64,000 nucleotides of DNA from Terriglobales bacterium (GTDB lineage: Bacteria; Acidobacteriota; Terriglobia; Terriglobales; Acidobacteriaceae), in assembly GCA_025936825.1 (NCBI GenBank), contig JAICSO010000014.1, forward strand, positions 1 through 64,000, in the 5' to 3' direction. Shown one piece after another: positions 21,937 through 30,085 of this stretch. The notes beneath the pieces are model-generated. The model was not told the origin of the DNA. It saw only the letters and a program-made list of their open reading frames with translations, and searched no databases. The translations under genes were made by a program, and so were the position numbers. Position 1 is the first letter of the stretch. Each line of letters starts with the position of its first letter.

Positions 21937-22347
21937 TTGCTTTACCTTACCCGCAAAGTTGAGTTTGCCGCGTCGCACTACTATCACAACCCGGAGCTGT
22001 CGCCGGAGGAGAACCGGCGGTTATTTGGGAAGTGCAACAACCCGAATGGACACGGGCACAACTACGTTCTTGAAGTCACGGTGAAGGGCGAAGTTGACCC
22101 GCGGTCAGGGTTCGTTGTCGACCTCAAGCGACTTAAGGAAATAATGAACCGAGAGGTGTTGGACGCGATGGACCATCGCTTTCTGAACAAAGAAGTCCCG
22201 GAATTTGCCACACGAGTCCCGACGACGGAGAACCTGGCGATTGCGATCTGGCAGCGGCTCGCGCCCACGCTGACCAATGCCAAATTGCATCGGGTGCGGG
22301 TGTACGAGAACCATGATCTGTTTGCGGACTTTTACGGGGAGGAATGA
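21937..22347 (+). CDS. 6-pyruvoyl-tetrahydropterin synthase family, first copy
   Basis: A 136-residue member of the PTPS/QueD family. TTG 21937 is the likely start, with a strong GGAGAAAGGA site ending six bases before it. The zinc-binding His residues are H14, H39 and H41 (motif 'CNNPNGHGH', a C-x5-HGH spacing typical of eukaryote-type PTPS; QueD usually has C-x3-HGH). The catalytic triad Cys33, Asp79 ('MDHRFLN') and His80 is complete, and the Glu of 'RVYENHD' is present. It should convert dihydroneopterin triphosphate to 6-pyruvoyl-tetrahydropterin. The neighbours (second copy, folE, SDR) support a biopterin-like pathway. Confidence 0.85.
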   Translation: MLYLTRKVEFAASHYYHNPELSPEENRRLFGKCNNPNGHGHNYVLEVTVKGEVDPRSGFVVDLKRLKEIMNREVLDAMDHRFLNKEVPEFATRVPTTENLAIAIWQRLAPTLTNAKLHRVRVYENHDLFADFYGEE

Positions 22348-22350
22348 AGA

Positions 22351-22445
22351 ATTGAATCATTGAATCAGCGGAGGATTGAATCATTGTCGCACCATGCGCA
22401 TATGGGTTTTCAATGACTCAATCCTCCGATGATTCAATGATTCAG
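22351..22445. repeat. Long inverted repeat between the two PTPS genes
   Basis: Arms of about 34 bases at 22352-22385 and 22410-22443 pair with only a few mismatches around a 24-base centre. Each arm is built from TGAATCATTGAATC units and CGGAGGATTGA. It is a large hairpin in the transcript, related to repeats at 22876-22972 and 23579-23650. Confidence 0.75.
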
Positions 22446-22468
22446 TCTCACAAAACATCAGTAGCTGC

Positions 22469-22888
22469 ATGAAAGCCTATTTGAATCGTCGCTACCGCTT
22501 CTCGGCGTCCCATCGGCTGCATAGCGAGCAAATGTCAGACGACGAGAACCGTGCTACCTACGGGAAGTGCAATAATCCGCACGGGCACGGGCATAATTAC
22601 GTCCTCGAAGTTACGGTCAGCGGCCAGGTGGATCAGAACGGCATGGTCTGCAACCTGGTTGACCTTGACGATTGCGTTCAGCAGAACGTTGTAACCAGAT
22701 TCGACCTGGAAAATCTAAACTATAGGCAGGAATTTGCGTCGGCGGTCCCAACGACGGAAAATCTATGCACCGTGATTTACGACATTTTGAAGCGTGAGTT
22801 CCGCCAGGCGCATCTGGAAAGGGTGAGACTGGAAGAGACGTTGTTCAACTCCTTTGAATACGCGAGAACCGAGGGATTGAATCATTGA
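22469..22888 (+). CDS. 6-pyruvoyl-tetrahydropterin synthase family, second copy with altered triad
   Basis: A 139-residue paralogue of the preceding gene. It keeps the zinc ligands H15, H40 and H42, Cys34 in 'CNNPHGHGH', and the C-terminal Glu in 'RLEETLF'. At the Asp-His pair of the triad the first copy reads 'DHRFLN' and this one 'DLENLN': Asp79 is kept, but His80 is Leu. PTPS needs this His for proton transfer, so the protein may have a different reaction, reduced activity, or act in a hetero-oligomer with the first copy. No ribosome site is obvious; it is probably co-transcribed through the hairpin. Confidence 0.8.
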   Translation: MKAYLNRRYRFSASHRLHSEQMSDDENRATYGKCNNPHGHGHNYVLEVTVSGQVDQNGMVCNLVDLDDCVQQNVVTRFDLENLNYRQEFASAVPTTENLCTVIYDILKREFRQAHLERVRLEETLFNSFEYARTEGLNH

Positions 22889-22972
22889 ATGATCAGATCA
22901 TTGAATCATTGACGAACCGTGTCCACGTGGGTTTTTCAATGATTCAATCCCACGGATGATTCAATTGAGCCA
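22876..22972. repeat. Inverted repeat between second PTPS gene and folE
   Basis: Left arm units (TTGAATCATTGAATGATCAG, 22876-22895, and further TCATTGAATCATTGA) face right-arm units TCAATGATTCAATCC and GATGATTCAATTGAG up to 22972. It is the same TGAATCATTGAA-type element as at 22351-22445, with a different centre. The left end overlaps the last codons of the PTPS gene. Confidence 0.7.
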
Positions 22973-22975
22973 CTG

Positions 22976-23575
22976 ATGAAGCAGACCTTGGAAAACACGA
23001 CTTTAACCTCTGCCAGCTTTGAAGAGCTGATGAAAGAAATTCTTGTGCGCCTAGGGGAGGACCCGGGCCGGGAAGGGCTAGTCAATACGCCGAGCCGTGT
23101 TCACAAGGCGTATCAATTTCTGACCAAGGGCTACAACGAGGATCCCGAAGCACTGCTGAAAAACGCGCTGTTCACGGTGACGTATGACGAGATGGTGATC
23201 GTGAAAGATGTGGAGGTGTTCAGCCTATGCGAACACCACATGCTGCCATTTTTCGGCAAGGTGCATGTTGCCTACATTCCGAACGGCAAGGTCATCGGCT
23301 TGAGCAAGATTCCGCGGTTGATCGAGACTTTTTCGCGGCGGCTTCAGATTCAAGAGCGCTTGACCACGCAGATTGCAGAAACCATTCAGAAGGTGATTCA
23401 GCCGCAAGGCGTGGGCGTCGTAATTGAGGCGAGACACCTGTGCATGATGATGCGCGGCGTCGAGAAACAGCATTCTTCAGCGGTGACATCTTCGATGCTC
23501 GGCTGCTTCCGCGATGAAGAAGAAACGCGGCAGGAATTCCTCTCGCTCATCCGGCAGAGGCCGAATGGGGTGTAG
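22976..23575 (+). CDS. folE: GTP cyclohydrolase I
   Basis: FolE converts GTP to dihydroneopterin triphosphate, the first step to folate and biopterin. The 199-residue protein has the usual length and signatures: '[13 protein letters not shown]', zinc ligands C85 and H88 in '[12 protein letters not shown]', the third ligand C156 in '[11 protein letters not shown]', and '[20 protein letters not shown]'. The product is the substrate of the adjacent PTPS enzymes, so the cluster forms a short pterin pathway. It follows the second PTPS gene after an inverted repeat and may share its transcript. Confidence 0.95.
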
Positions 23576-23578
23576 GGA

Positions 23579-23650
23579 ATTGAATCATTGAAGAATTGAA
23601 TCACTGAATCATTGAAAAGCGGCCGCAGACGATTCACTGCTCAGTGATTC
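23579..23650. repeat. Third TGAATCATTGAA-type intergenic repeat
   Basis: After folE come ATTGAATCATTGAAGAATTG and GAATCACTGAATCATTGAA, facing CAGTGATTCGATCATC on the right. It is a less perfect member of the repeat family in this cluster. Confidence 0.6.
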
Positions 23651-23690
23651 GATCATCTACAATCATCTTTCGGTCTCCTCGACAAACGCC

Positions 23691-24479
23691 GTGAAGAAAT
23701 CCCGTGCAAGAAAATCGGCTCAGAAAAGTCGCTCAGTTCAACCTAGGAATGGTCAATCGAATTCGCCTTTGCTCAACGGCAGAGTCGCGCTGATCACGGG
23801 CGCGACGCAAGGGATTGGGCTGGCGACCGCGCGGGCGCTGGCAGACGAAGGATGCAACCTGATCCTCTGCGGACGGGACCGGAAACGGCTCGCCGCCGCA
23901 GAAGCAGAACTCTGCAACAAAGGAATCCGCGCAGTCGCAATTTCCTGCGATGTTCGCGATGAGAAAAGCGTCGCCGCAATGTTCGCTAAGCTGCAGAAGA
24001 GCTTTCCCCGCATCGACATTCTGATCAATAGCGCGGGAATCGCGAATGCCTTTCGTTCAGTGGCGCAACTGGATACGGGTGAGTGGAATGATGTCCTTGC
24101 CACGAATTTGACGGGGACGTTTCTGATCACACGCGCGGCGTTGCCGCTGATGTCGCGCGGAGGCTCGATTGTGAATGTGCTATCGATGTCGTCGAAGCGG
24201 GCCTTTCCCAACCTGGCGGCCTACAATGCCTCCAAGTTCGGCGCGCTTGGCTTCACGAATACGTTGCGCGAGGAGGTGCGGTCGGAGGGTATTCGGGTAG
24301 TGGCGGTTCTGCCCGGGGCAACTGATACCCCGATTTGGGGGACGCTCTGGCCCGAAGCTCCCCGCCACAAAATGATGCGATCCGAAAGCGTGGCGCAGGC
24401 CATCGTCGCGGCCCTCAAGCTTCCCCCGGAGAGTACGGTCGAAGAACTTGACCTTATGCCAACAGGCGGCCCTCTCTAA
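23691..24479 (+). CDS. SDR-family NAD(P)H oxidoreductase, possible sepiapterin-type reductase
   Basis: The 262-residue protein starts at GTG 23691 with a basic tail of about 30 residues before the Rossmann fold. Classical SDR motifs are present: cofactor-binding T-G-x3-G-I-G in 'TGATQGIGLA' (about 37-46), 'NSAG' at about 113, the catalytic Ser in 'VLSMSSKR', and Y-x3-K in 'YNASK'. Cofactor choice is probably NADPH, from 'CGRDRKRL' after strand two. SDRs reduce many carbonyls. Next to GTP cyclohydrolase I and PTPS, reduction of pyruvoyl-tetrahydropterin or sepiapterin is attractive, but this rests on context only. Confidence 0.75.
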   Translation: MKKSRARKSAQKSRSVQPRNGQSNSPLLNGRVALITGATQGIGLATARALADEGCNLILCGRDRKRLAAAEAELCNKGIRAVAISCDVRDEKSVAAMFAKLQKSFPRIDILINSAGIANAFRSVAQLDTGEWNDVLATNLTGTFLITRAALPLMSRGGSIVNVLSMSSKRAFPNLAAYNASKFGALGFTNTLREEVRSEGIRVVAVLPGATDTPIWGTLWPEAPRHKMMRSESVAQAIVAALKLPPESTVEELDLMPTGGPL

Positions 24480-27328: not shown

Positions 27329-28084
27329 TCAGCTGAGAACAAGAGCGCCGTTAGCGACGTCGGCGGCAGCTTGCGCCAAGTGTTCGGGGCGGCCGAGGTC
27401 GCGCCAGTAATACTGGTCGGCAGGGAACGAGCGAATCTTCTCGCCTGCACCTGCGAGACGCAAGTAAACGTCGATGATCGAGAACACGCCTTGCTCCGTC
27501 ATCAGTTTGAGCAGTCGGGGCGAGATCACGTGAATGCCGCAAAAGGCAAGAGGATGAGGGTGCGGGCAGGCGCGCACCATTTCGGTGACAGTTTTGTCGT
27601 CCTTCGTAATCTGGCGGCCGCACAGTTCTGACTGCGAATTGAAAAGCAGCAAGCGGGAACTCTTGCGATCGCGCATCGCCAGCGTGACCAGCGCATCGTG
27701 CTTGCGGTGAAGGGCGACCATCTCGTGCAGATCAATACTGCTGAGCACGTCGACGTTGTGCAAGATGAACGGTGTGTCCCCTGAGTCACGCAGGAAGAAC
27801 TTCGCCGCTTTCTTCAGACCGCCGCCGGTGTCGAGCAGAAGATCGTCTTCACGCGAAATCTCGATGTGCATTCCGAAATTCTGATGGTCTGCGAGATAGT
27901 GGGCGAGCACGTCGGCGCAATGGTGACTATTGATGATGACGTCCTGAACGCCGAAGCGGCGGAGTCGTGCGAGGGCGATCTCAAGAAGCGTACGGCCGTT
28001 GATCTCGACGAGGGCTTTCGGACGGTCATTGGTGAGCGGACGAAGCCGCGTGCCTAGCCCTGCCGCCAGCACCATGGCCTTCAC
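27329..28084 (-). CDS. MurU-like sugar-1-phosphate nucleotidyltransferase
   Basis: The 251-residue enzyme has the nucleotidyltransferase signature at residues 5-25 ('VLAAGLGTRLRPLTNDRPKA') and the RmlA/MurU fold features 'DTGGGLKKA' and 'HNVDVLSS', with metal-binding Asp. MurU makes UDP-MurNAc from MurNAc-1-phosphate in cell-wall recycling. The partner kinase AmgK makes that phosphate, and the upstream gene here is AmgK-like and overlaps by four bases (ATGA), so MurU is the preferred assignment over mannose-1-phosphate guanylyltransferase. The substrate is not proven by sequence. Confidence 0.75.
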   Translation of the reverse strand: MKAMVLAAGLGTRLRPLTNDRPKALVEINGRTLLEIALARLRRFGVQDVIINSHHCADVLAHYLADHQNFGMHIEISREDDLLLDTGGGLKKAAKFFLRDSGDTPFILHNVDVLSSIDLHEMVALHRKHDALVTLAMRDRKSSRLLLFNSQSELCGRQITKDDKTVTEMVRACPHPHPLAFCGIHVISPRLLKLMTEQGVFSIIDVYLRLAGAGEKIRSFPADQYYWRDLGRPEHLAQAAADVANGALVLS

Positions 28085-29538
28085 TTGCCCATCTTCTCCA
28101 GTTCGGTGTGCCGGACTACAACCTGGACGCCGTTTTTGGAGCGCAGATGTTTCGCCAATTGCTCGGCAAGATAAACCGAGCGATGCTGGCCGCCGGTACA
28201 GCCGAACGAAACCATCAGGTTGTCAAATCCACGGCGCTTGTACTCGCGCACGCTGTTGTCGACCAGCGACGACACGTGAGCGAAGTATTGCTGCACGCTG
28301 TCCTGCTGGTTGAGATAATCGGCGACAGGAGCGTCTTTGCCGGTGAGCTGCTTAAAACGCTCTTCGCGGCCAGGATTTGGCAAGCTGCGGCCGTCGAAAA
28401 CGAAACCCCCGCCGTTGCCGCTATCGTCTTTGGGAACTCCTCCGCGATGAAAGGAGAAGCTGAAGATGCGCACGGTGAGCGGAGACGGCTCATTGGCGGG
28501 TTTTACATCTTCTGCTTCTGTGGAGATGTGCTGCAGTTTCTCCGAGCCGAGCATGGCGCGGAAGGCGTCTATTAACGTGGGAAGCGCGACTGGCAGTTCC
28601 ACGTTGTGCAGCAACCAGCGGATGTTCTTCAGGGCATAGGGAACACTTTGCAGAAAGTGCGGTTTTCGCTCGTAAAATCCGCGAAAGCCATATGCGCCGA
28701 GCGCCTGCATGATGCGCACGTAAACGTACGCGTAGTAGTGATGCAGGAAAGCATTGCGATCTAAGTCGAGATAGTCGCCCAGCGAAGCGAGGTAGTGATC
28801 GAGCAGTTGTTGCCGCAAAGACGGCGGCAGGTCGGCCTTAGCGTCGTAGAGCAGGGAAGCCACGTCGTACTGCAGGGCGCCTTTGCGTCCGCCCTGGTAA
28901 TCCACGAAGTATGGCTCACCTTCAACCAGCATGATGTTGCGCGACTGGAAATCGCGATACAGAAAATAGTCGTGCGGCACGCTGAGAAGAAATTTGGTCA
29001 GGCGCGTGAAGTCCTGCTCAAGCGCCTGCTCGTTGAAAGGGATTCCGGCAAGACGCAGAAAGTAGTACTTGAAGTAGTTCAGGTCCCACGCGATCGATTG
29101 CCGATCGAAACTGGAGCGCGGATAGCAAACTTTGTAATTCAAATCGCGCCCGGCTTCAACCTGGAAACGTGGAAGAATGGCGAGGGCCTTGCGATAGGCA
29201 TCGATTACGGGAGCGGCGATGTTGTCGCCATGGCGGTTCTCCGACAAAAACTGAAAGAGCGTGGTGTCGCCGAGGTCTTGCTCGAGATAAGCGTCGTGAG
29301 CGAGATCGTCGGCGTAGATCTCGGGAACAGGAAGGCCGTGCCGGCGGAAGTGGCGCGAAAACTCGAGGAAGGCGACGTTCTCCTCGCGGACGTTGTAGAG
29401 AATTCCAATGGCGCGTGCCTTCTCCCCAAATAGGCGGATGATGCGGCGCCCGGAGCCGCCGAGTTCACCCTGCAGCGGCTGAATGCGGACCACCGGAACA
29501 TGAAAATGTTGCTCGAAAAGTTGTTGCAGAACGTCCAT
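28081..29538 (-). CDS. AmgK-like sugar kinase fused to a RapZ C-terminal domain
   Basis: Read from ATG 29538 the protein has 485 residues; the frame further upstream runs into repeat DNA and is rejected. Residues 1-330 are an aminoglycoside-phosphotransferase-type kinase: catalytic loop 'YRDFQSRNIML' with D196 and N201 (the usual His of H-x-D is Tyr), then metal-binding D in 'FVDYQGG'. AmgK-type enzymes phosphorylate MurNAc/GlcNAc at the anomeric carbon. Residues from about 357 match the RapZ C-terminal domain: 'FVFDGRSLPNPGR', 'LTGKD', and 'SFGCTGGQHRSVYLAEQLA'. The RapZ N-terminal P-loop domain is absent. In E. coli that C-terminal domain binds glucosamine-6-phosphate and small RNAs. The downstream MurU-like gene overlaps by four bases. 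Confidence 0.85.
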   Translation of the reverse strand: MDVLQQLFEQHFHVPVVRIQPLQGELGGSGRRIIRLFGEKARAIGILYNVREENVAFLEFSRHFRRHGLPVPEIYADDLAHDAYLEQDLGDTTLFQFLSENRHGDNIAAPVIDAYRKALAILPRFQVEAGRDLNYKVCYPRSSFDRQSIAWDLNYFKYYFLRLAGIPFNEQALEQDFTRLTKFLLSVPHDYFLYRDFQSRNIMLVEGEPYFVDYQGGRKGALQYDVASLLYDAKADLPPSLRQQLLDHYLASLGDYLDLDRNAFLHHYYAYVYVRIMQALGAYGFRGFYERKPHFLQSVPYALKNIRWLLHNVELPVALPTLIDAFRAMLGSEKLQHISTEAEDVKPANEPSPLTVRIFSFSFHRGGVPKDDSGNGGGFVFDGRSLPNPGREERFKQLTGKDAPVADYLNQQDSVQQYFAHVSSLVDNSVREYKRRGFDNLMVSFGCTGGQHRSVYLAEQLAKHLRSKNGVQVVVRHTELEKMGK

Positions 29539-29590
29539 GAGCGTAAGGACTAAAGATATCACTGGGGGGTGGGAGAGGGTTACGAGGAAC

Positions 29591-30085
29591 GCCAAGGGAA
29601 AACCTTCACCACAGAGGGCACGAAGGTACACAGAGGAAAACCACAGAGGAAATCGTCGAAAAACAACACCGAAGAAACGAAAGAGGGGAATGCCAAGTGA
29701 AAACCTTCACCACAGAGGGCACGAAGGTACACAAAGGAAAACCACAGAGGAAACCGCGGAAAGAACTACCGAAGAAACGAAAGAGCGGAATGCCAAGTGA
29801 AAACCTTCACCACAGAGGACGCGAAGGTACACAAAGGAAAACCACAGAGGAAACCGCGGAAAAAACTACCGAAGAAACGAAAGAGCGGAATGCCGAGTGA
29901 AAACCTTCACCACAGAGGACAAGAAGGTACACAAAGGAAAACCACAGAGGAAACGGTTGAAAAAACACTGAGGAAACGAAAGAGCGGAATGCCAAGTGAA
30001 AACCTTCACCACAGAGGGCACGAAGGTACACAGAGGAAAACCACAGAGTTAAGCGTCGAAAAAAAATATCGAAGAACCAAAGAGG
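29591..30085. repeat. Five-copy 100-bp tandem array
   Basis: The motif AACCTTCACCACAGAGG begins at 29601, 29702, 29802, 29902 and 30001, giving periods of 101, 100, 100 and 99 bp. Units carry 'CACAGAGG...GAAGGTACACA', 'AACCACAGAGGAAA' and 'GAAACGAAAGAG'. The copies differ by a few bases, more at the ends. The array begins about 50 bases upstream of the kinase-RapZ start, so it lies in that gene's 5' region. Translatable plus-strand frames across it are repeat artefacts. The rest of the 29539-30406 gap holds no gene. Confidence 0.9.

Follow-up and report, generated by a model that had tools for sequence, protein, structure and literature searches.

What is the C-terminal domain of RapZ doing at the end of a kinase of the aminoglycoside phosphotransferase (APH) type? 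The question is raised by a gene on the minus strand of a 64,000-nucleotide stretch of a Terriglobales genome (hereafter the window). A first-pass annotation of this DNA had described a single frame joining an APH/AmgK-type kinase to a RapZ C-terminal domain with the signature GCTGGQHRSVYLAEQLA, lacking the P-loop domain of RapZ and overlapping the next, MurU-like gene by four bases. Our analysis bears out this description, and points to a real and widespread two-part bacterial enzyme whose kinase probably recycles cell-wall sugars. From the pairing of the kinase with a RapZ domain, it would seem that this domain acts on sugar phosphates itself, without need for RNA.

The kinase-RapZ fusion and its gene

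The features of the locus are as follows.

28081-29538, minus strand: fused gene, AmgK-type kinase plus RapZ C-terminal domain, ATG at 29538, 485 aa (open reading frame [ORF], Pfam/NCBIfam, aligned relatives)
28534-29538, minus strand: kinase part, residues 1-335, APH fold (PF01636; AlphaFold2 model against 3csv)
28936-28959, minus strand: kinase catalytic motif YRDFQSRN, residues 194-201 (conserved residues among 117 distinct ORFs)
28084-28482, minus strand: RapZ C-terminal domain, residues 353-485 (PF22740; stand-alone model against 5o5s)
28405-28428, minus strand: stretch DDSGNGGG, residues 371-378, with an insert at 372-376 that canonical RapZ lacks (alignments)
28177-28203, minus strand: pocket loop GCTGGQHRS, residues 446-454, Cys-X5-Arg-Ser (conservation and correspondence to the E. 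coli RapZ pocket)
28081-28084, minus strand: GTGA overlap shared by the kinase stop and the MurU-like start (ORF coordinates)
27329-28084, minus strand: MurU-like sugar-1-phosphate nucleotidyltransferase, 251 aa, GTG start (PF00483; MurU NCBIfam models best)

The ATG at 29538 is kept as a start in most aligned relatives; an alternative GTG at 29631, which would yield 516 aa, was unsupported by them. The window protein matched the APH family PF01636 over residues 53-254 (41.5 bits, cut-off 23.2) and the RapZ C-terminal family PF22740 over residues 355-480 (121.3 bits, cut-off 27), and GCTGGQHRSVYLAEQLA was found at residues 446-462. The RapZ equivalog NF003828 scored 112.3 bits, below its cut-off of 244, and aligned only from residue 343 onward (profile positions 149-277 against residues 343-479), with no RapZ P-loop part matched in the window protein. 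Thirteen acidobacterial homologues aligned over the whole length with 58-78% identity.

An AlphaFold2 model of the fused protein, built from 52 aligned rows, displayed a mean predicted local distance difference test (pLDDT) of 91.3 and a predicted template modelling score (pTM) of 0.69; given the latter value, how the two domains sit relative to each other is uncertain. The kinase domain superimposed on 3csv, a putative aminoglycoside phosphotransferase, with Z 28.7 (2.8 Å, 309 residues), while the C-terminal domain within the same model superimposed on E. coli RapZ (5o5s) with Z 20.1 (1.5 Å, 123 residues). Modelled alone, the C-terminal domain reached pLDDT 94.7 and pTM 0.90, again with 5o5s as its top match (Z 20.5, 1.4 Å, 122 residues); by its PF22740 score and this fold it belongs to the RapZ C-terminal domain family. 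Its next structural match was phosphofructokinase (Z 6.9), in agreement with the likeness reported in a published structural comparison of RapZ (PMC5737377). The only PDB sequence relatives of the whole fused protein were RapZ and 3csv. Since 13 homologues are full-length and both model domains match solved folds, the fusion is real and chance is excluded.

The kinase part has what catalysis by an APH-type enzyme calls for. D196, Q198 and N201 were identical in all 115 rows with letters among the 117 distinct ORFs, and D213 was kept in 115 of the 117 (one X, one gap); thus, the catalytic Asp, the Asn and the metal Asp are intact within a kinase fold.

Distribution of the fusion and its MurU-like partner

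When GTDB contigs were scanned with two kinase peptides as query, 580 stretches were confirmed, and the best 80 of these loci, found with the kinase half alone, spanned nine phylum labels (Acidobacteria, Bacteroidota, Elusimicrobia, Calditrichota, Ignavibacteria, Marinimicrobia, Chlorobiota, KSB1 and Deferribacteres) together with unlabelled bacteria. The loop GCTGGxHRS stood in the kinase reading frame at 78 of the 80. Of the two exceptions, L045 meets a contig end and L064 has a frameshift inside the loop; in the latter (L064:4935-6893) the frame change within GCTGG runs the kinase frame into the MurU-like gene and is probably an assembly error. No clean unfused kinase was present among these best 80 of 580 loci, a scan from which diverged unfused kinases may escape. 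Within Bacteroidales, 244 of 295 sampled genomes carried a homologue (E 1e-60 or better), the match rows listed covering nearly the whole profile except at one contig edge; the loci read were the 30 best-scoring of the 244 plus three lower-scoring ones (L195, L196 and L197). With 78 of 80 loci fused and a homologue in 244 of 295 Bacteroidales, this kinase family, to the extent sampled, is normally fused, and the window gene is not a local accident.

Presence in Acidobacteriota was patchy (10 of 396 genomes sampled across the phylum), which fits gene transfer or loss. Among 41 near genomes, including that of the window, 11 had a kinase-containing protein (cut by contig ends in G001, G003 and G005, and with an internal gap in G002), 24 had a RapZ domain only and six had neither. 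In a tree of fused proteins the window fell in a 10-row acidobacterial clade (support 100/100), beside Elusimicrobiota, KSB1 and unlabelled rows. The 52-row alignment of fused proteins has 51 distinct rows, L039 and L080 being the same genome.

We next consider the gene that the fusion overlaps. The GTGA at 28081-28084 confirms the four-base overlap, and this arrangement recurs: 92 of the 117 distinct kinase ORFs had a MurU-like ORF on the same strand within the locus, with an exact 4-base overlap at 54 of these 92 non-duplicate loci. With duplicates included, both genes were present at 102 of 128 loci and the overlap at 58 (47 ATG and 11 GTG starts). Several of the kinase loci without a MurU-like ORF are truncated by a contig edge or come with just ~1.5 kb of flanking sequence. 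Among the best 80 of 580 loci, 70 had a MurU-like neighbour. A neighbour scan of ORFs from L076-L119 (52 of 71 upstream, 62 of 95 downstream), which left out nine loci whose chosen ORFs did not include the kinase (L049, L073, L079, L082, L084, L087, L113, L117 and L118), returned the nucleotidyltransferase as the sole recurring neighbour (21 of the 62 downstream ORFs); among the first 25 families listed, every other family occurred at most three times up- or downstream. In one KSB1 genome the fused kinase and the MurU-like gene are separated by a 303-aa gene (L105:4441-5349) matched by no NCBIfam model.

The association extends to whole genomes. A member of the MurU-like family (E 1e-30 or better) occurred in 28 of 30 fusion genomes versus 3 of 28 unfused ones (Fisher p 8e-11, here and below with kinship ignored), the respective counts being 14/14 versus 0/16 in Acidobacteriota (p 7e-9) and 14/16 versus 3/12 in Bacteroidota (p 0.0015). 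The MurU-like gene was present even where the two genes lie on different contigs (G435, G440 and G444). The three unfused genomes with a MurU-like gene (G487, G507 and G556) all have matches to AnmK, and these exceptions may be assembly gaps. Taken together, the 4-base overlaps and the genome-wide co-occurrence provide good support for the view that the kinase and the nucleotidyltransferase act as a pair in the manner of AmgK and MurU, in keeping with the pairing first proposed from the window alone.

Which sugar would such a unit process? Like Pseudomonas AmgK, the fusion has an APH-type kinase with its catalytic residues and a MurU partner; unlike it, the fusion carries a RapZ domain, for which the AmgK models (324-360 positions long) are too short. 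The AmgK models NF045698 and NF045759 were the only NCBIfam kinase equivalogs to match the window protein, at 50.8 and 39.0 bits and thus far under their cut-offs of 500 and 550; AmgK models also led among kinase models for two Bacteroidota members. We accordingly describe the window kinase as AmgK-like rather than as a certified AmgK, with MurNAc (N-acetylmuramate) and/or GlcNAc (N-acetylglucosamine) as its predicted substrate. For the partner at 27329-28084, the MurU models NF045761 (125.7 bits, cut-off 250) and NF045697 (117.6 bits, cut-off 370) led all others, although neither curated cut-off was reached. Its best PDB match, 4y7t, is entered as a nucleotidyl transferase and is P. putida MurU. 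The partner thus shares with Pseudomonas MurU (4y7t, 8hhd) the nucleotidyltransferase signature, its best curated models and its best PDB match, differing in that it attains only a third to half of the curated cut-off scores.

These sub-threshold scores leave some room for a different sugar-1-kinase, acting for example on GlcNAc from chitin or on another hexose, with the MurU-like enzyme making another nucleotide sugar. A mannose-1-phosphate guanylyltransferase model scored 116.1 bits on the window partner, nearly level with the two MurU models; N-acetylhexosamine 1-kinase and glucosamine kinase are among the structures that resemble the kinase (Z 19-20); and GH20 hexosaminidases were among the matches of two of the 52 upstream neighbours scanned. 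We nonetheless consider another sugar unlikely, given that only AmgK equivalogs match the window kinase, that 4y7t is the best PDB match of its partner and that the MurU models were clearly ahead for the Bacteroidota partner L103 (119 versus 84 bits). A kinase-MurU salvage unit for wall sugars is instead very likely. The two genes would form an anabolic peptidoglycan-sugar salvage unit, in which the kinase part would phosphorylate C1 of MurNAc (and/or GlcNAc) and the MurU-like partner would convert the sugar-1-phosphate to uridine diphosphate (UDP)-MurNAc (or UDP-GlcNAc).

Activity may already be on record for a member of this family. Functional AmgK and MurU of Tannerella forsythia are reported to have been produced in E. 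coli (PMC13041923), and the MurU route is credited to this organism (PMC13046382). T. forsythia falls within Bacteroidales, the order in which the fusion is so common, and its AmgK possibly belongs to the same family; if it carries a RapZ domain, then kinase activity is already established for one member of the family.

The RapZ domain: RNA, sensing or hydrolysis

If the kinase and its partner salvage wall sugars, what does the RapZ domain contribute? The first-pass annotation had offered two options, that the domain senses an amino sugar and tunes the kinase or that it couples recycling to RNA control. The first stays in contention, the phosphate loop of the RapZ pocket being intact, but the second fared poorly. 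The E. coli RNA-tail motif RxRxKNxQxRHRTxxKRK was matched at 3 of 12 positions in the window protein and at no more than 5 of 12 in 52 fused proteins. The RNA-binding C-terminal part of E. coli RapZ is itself described as restricted to Enterobacteriaceae (PMC7073468), and its motif is described as not conserved in YvcJ (PMC7525490). Moreover, of 30 fused genomes tested from outside Acidobacteriota, 25 had no RapZ domain except the fused copy. The other five are Elusimicrobia with an additional stand-alone RapZ, each with the P-loop GMSGAGKS, while Bacteroidales without the fusion had no RapZ domain in 12 of 12 genomes. Because the RNA tail is missing and the fused copy stands alone in those 25 genomes, a link of the fused domain to RNase E and small RNAs is unlikely. 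The idea of a domain that binds small RNAs, as RapZ does, and so links salvage to RNA regulation can appeal to reports that the E. coli C-terminal domain alone can bind RNA (PMC7073468) and that its pocket also makes contact with the backbone of GlmZ (PMC9841335); set against the absent tail and the retention of the domain in genomes without any other RapZ domain, we regard it as highly improbable.

The window genome (6.54 Mb, 99.67% complete) is among those with a separate RapZ gene, located on a different contig and with a P-loop reading GMSGSGKA. Stand-alone acidobacterial RapZ proteins (L001:1492-2460 on contig C68 of the window genome; L014, L015 and L024) read GMSGSGKA or G[ML]SGSGKG, deviating from the usual P-loop ends GKS or GKT.

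The pocket loop is nearly invariant. In E. coli RapZ, H190, T248, G249, H252 and R253 make up a pocket, adjacent to C247, in which sulfate or malonate is bound (PMC5737377, PMC9841335). The window loop GCTGGQHRS corresponds to T248, G249, H252 and R253 together with C247. Among the 117 distinct ORFs, C447, T448, G449, G450 and R453 were identical in all 116 rows with letters, and H452 and S454 each differed in one row only. D371, D382, R384, N388 and P389 were identical in all 117, and H477 in the 116 with letters. The diverged L195, L196 and L197 retain the loop as well. Such conservation speaks against a purely structural role, in which the RapZ domain would dimerise or stabilise the kinase and the pocket would be a relic. 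The isolated RapZ C-terminal domain is reported to dimerise alone (PMC7073468), but a relic pocket is unlikely to stay invariant over nine phylum labels, with C447 and R453 unchanged throughout and the loop retained even in the three diverged loci, and we consider this role improbable.

The fused domain also departs from canonical RapZ (E. coli RapZ; YvcJ in Bacillus), with which it shares the C-terminal fold and the invariant pocket loop, while missing both the P-loop N-terminal domain and the RNA tail. The E. coli pocket residue H190 is not conserved, the equivalent position 365 having mixed letters. The five-residue Gly-rich insert at 372-376 is a gap in all 13 canonical acidobacterial RapZ rows aligned, and the run G376-G378, directly before a conserved FxFDxR stretch, was invariant in the 117 ORFs. 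Where canonical RapZ has NPH or NPN, 116 of the 117 fused ORFs have NPG (L197 has NPH). The insert and the NPG are as expected if the ligand of the fused domain differs from that of canonical RapZ.

One reading of a conserved pocket is that it binds glucosamine-6-phosphate (GlcN6P), or UDP-GlcNAc or MurNAc-6-phosphate (MurNAc-6P), without turnover and thereby switches the kinase on or off, matching wall-sugar salvage to the precursor pool. RapZ is reported to bind GlcN6P with an apparent KD of 186 nM (PMC7525490), and its C-terminal domain to do so more tightly than the whole protein (PMC7073468). The intact phosphate loop is consistent with such a sensor, and an interdomain linker of 7-25 residues (most often 9), together with the uncertain domain arrangement, would be compatible with an allosteric appendage. 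Domains added for regulation, however, usually disappear from one lineage or another, and the best 80 of 580 loci included no clean unfused kinase. In addition, the pocket retains its cysteine and serine, which phosphate binding should not in itself require, and the H190 position is not conserved. We regard sensing as a genuine possibility, falling short of a probability.

Hydrolysis of a sugar phosphate is as plausible as sensing, because the domain has a Cys-X5-Arg-Ser loop, a feature absent from the account given by the first-pass annotation. The fused C-terminal domain would then be a phospho-amino-sugar domain rather than an RNA-binding one, in which this loop would bind the sugar 6-phosphate and slow cysteine-dependent hydrolysis would follow. 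A 6-phosphatase beside a 1-kinase feeding MurU would occupy the position of MupP before AmgK. In the Pseudomonas route, AnmK, MupP, AmgK and MurU are reported to yield MurNAc-6P, MurNAc, MurNAc-1-phosphate and UDP-MurNAc, respectively (PMC5371407). The role proposed for the fused domain is thus like that of MupP, a sugar 6-phosphatase acting before AmgK and MurU (PMC5371407); MupP differs in being a HAD-family enzyme with Mg-helped chemistry, unrelated to the RapZ domain, whose phosphatase role is putative.

Several observations are consistent with hydrolysis. In the model, CTGGQHRS lies between a strand (440-447) and a helix (453-468), as in a loop of the protein tyrosine phosphatase (PTP) type. 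The two halves of the fused protein are equally conserved (mean identity 56% for the RapZ half and 57% for the kinase half), and the distances of the halves correlate at 0.68, the largest value in 1000 permutations being 0.13; this even conservation, and the absence of a clean unfused kinase from the best 80 of 580 loci, are easier to reconcile with a catalytic partner than with a sensor that could be dispensed with. HpaP reportedly has ATPase and phosphatase activity, going by a reference title. A parallel has been drawn in print between the RapZ pocket and the phosphatase loop of cysteine-dependent enzymes, together with a proposal that RapZ hydrolyses GlcN6P (PMC7199280), and YvcJ is reported to have phosphatase activity (PMC7525490). 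In RapZ crystals with GlcN6P the density is described as likely a transformed product, and C247A and C247S are both reported to abolish RapZ activity (PMC9841335); a substrate trapped in C247S would also explain the loss of RNA binding by that variant.

Other findings weigh against a hydrolytic domain. The C-terminal fold had no significant similarity to phosphatases, the best being DUSP10 at Foldseek rank 44 (E 2.4), so that any phosphatase likeness is local to the loop. Likewise, no significant match to the PTP or low-molecular-weight PTP fold was obtained, the listed structural rows after RapZ being phosphofructokinase and others at Z 6.9 or less. Cys-X5-Arg-[Ser/Thr] also arose in 180 of 20000 shuffles. 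Since the E. coli pocket variants tested are reported to have lost RNA binding too (PMC9841335), the pocket cysteine could be structural. The metabolite reported for RapZ is GlcN6P rather than MurNAc-6P, and the activity of the fused family is itself predicted from sequence. The kinase and MurU models, as noted above, scored far below their equivalog cut-offs.

The genomic context of MurNAc-6P also counts in part against hydrolysis. AnmK, the maker of MurNAc-6P, was present in 21 of 36 fused versus 5 of 20 unfused Bacteroidales genomes (p 0.025, kinship ignored), which speaks for hydrolysis but is a weak discriminator. It was missing in the other 15 fused Bacteroidales and in G040, G365 and G441, so MurNAc-6P from AnmK is not always available. 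In Acidobacteriota it was found in all 16 unfused genomes and in 12 of 14 fused ones; in phyla other than Acidobacteriota, 20 of 21 fused genomes had it. Strong MurQ matches (E 2.1e-86 or better) occurred both with and without the fusion, in 48 of 51 genomes altogether (weak only in G010, G435 and G450), and the curated cut-off was exceeded in 42; we therefore rejected the idea that the fusion replaces the MurQ route. Among 80 of the 244 fused Bacteroidales, none lacked both MurA and MurB, as a fusion-dependent genome might; three were without MurA, probably through assembly gaps, and all three had MurB.

Taken together, our best explanation for the locus, held with somewhat less than even confidence, is a salvage unit whose RapZ domain would hydrolyse the 6-phosphate. 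The component claim that this domain is a catalytic 6-phosphatase feeding the kinase is a tentative prediction. A bifunctional enzyme that would move the phosphate load from C6 to C1, in effect a MupP analogue of new fold joined to AmgK, is possible but doubtful.

Significance and neighbouring features

No published description of a RapZ-AmgK fusion was found in the literature searched, which covers few subscription papers, and whether the RapZ C-terminal domain hydrolyses the GlcN6P that it binds is treated as an open question in PMC7199280 and PMC9841335. The fusion offers a clean system for asking how a RapZ domain acts on sugar phosphates, because it has the same cysteine loop over nine phylum labels, no RNA tail and, in most of the fused genomes tested outside Acidobacteriota, no other RapZ domain beside it. 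If the domain is catalytic, it would fill a gap in AmgK-MurU salvage outside Proteobacteria, and the RapZ C-terminal domain would ancestrally have served sugar-phosphate chemistry before its recruitment for RNA regulation in enterobacteria. If it senses, it would be an allosteric switch on the same route. Either way, a common protein described only in halves by the NCBIfam RapZ and AmgK models gains a testable role.

A promoter scan of the locus found none, and terminators were near the shuffle mean. Directly upstream of the start of the fused gene lies a tandem array (29586-30084) of five 100-base units with 89% matches, containing CACCACAGAGGGCACGAAGG; the ORFs called on both strands inside it are probably spurious. 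Further away, on the plus strand, an apparent pterin cluster (21937-24479) consists of two tandem 6-pyruvoyl-tetrahydropterin-synthase-like genes, 48% identical to each other, followed by GTP cyclohydrolase I (FolE) and then a short-chain dehydrogenase, an arrangement that recalls tetrahydrobiopterin synthesis with its second step duplicated.

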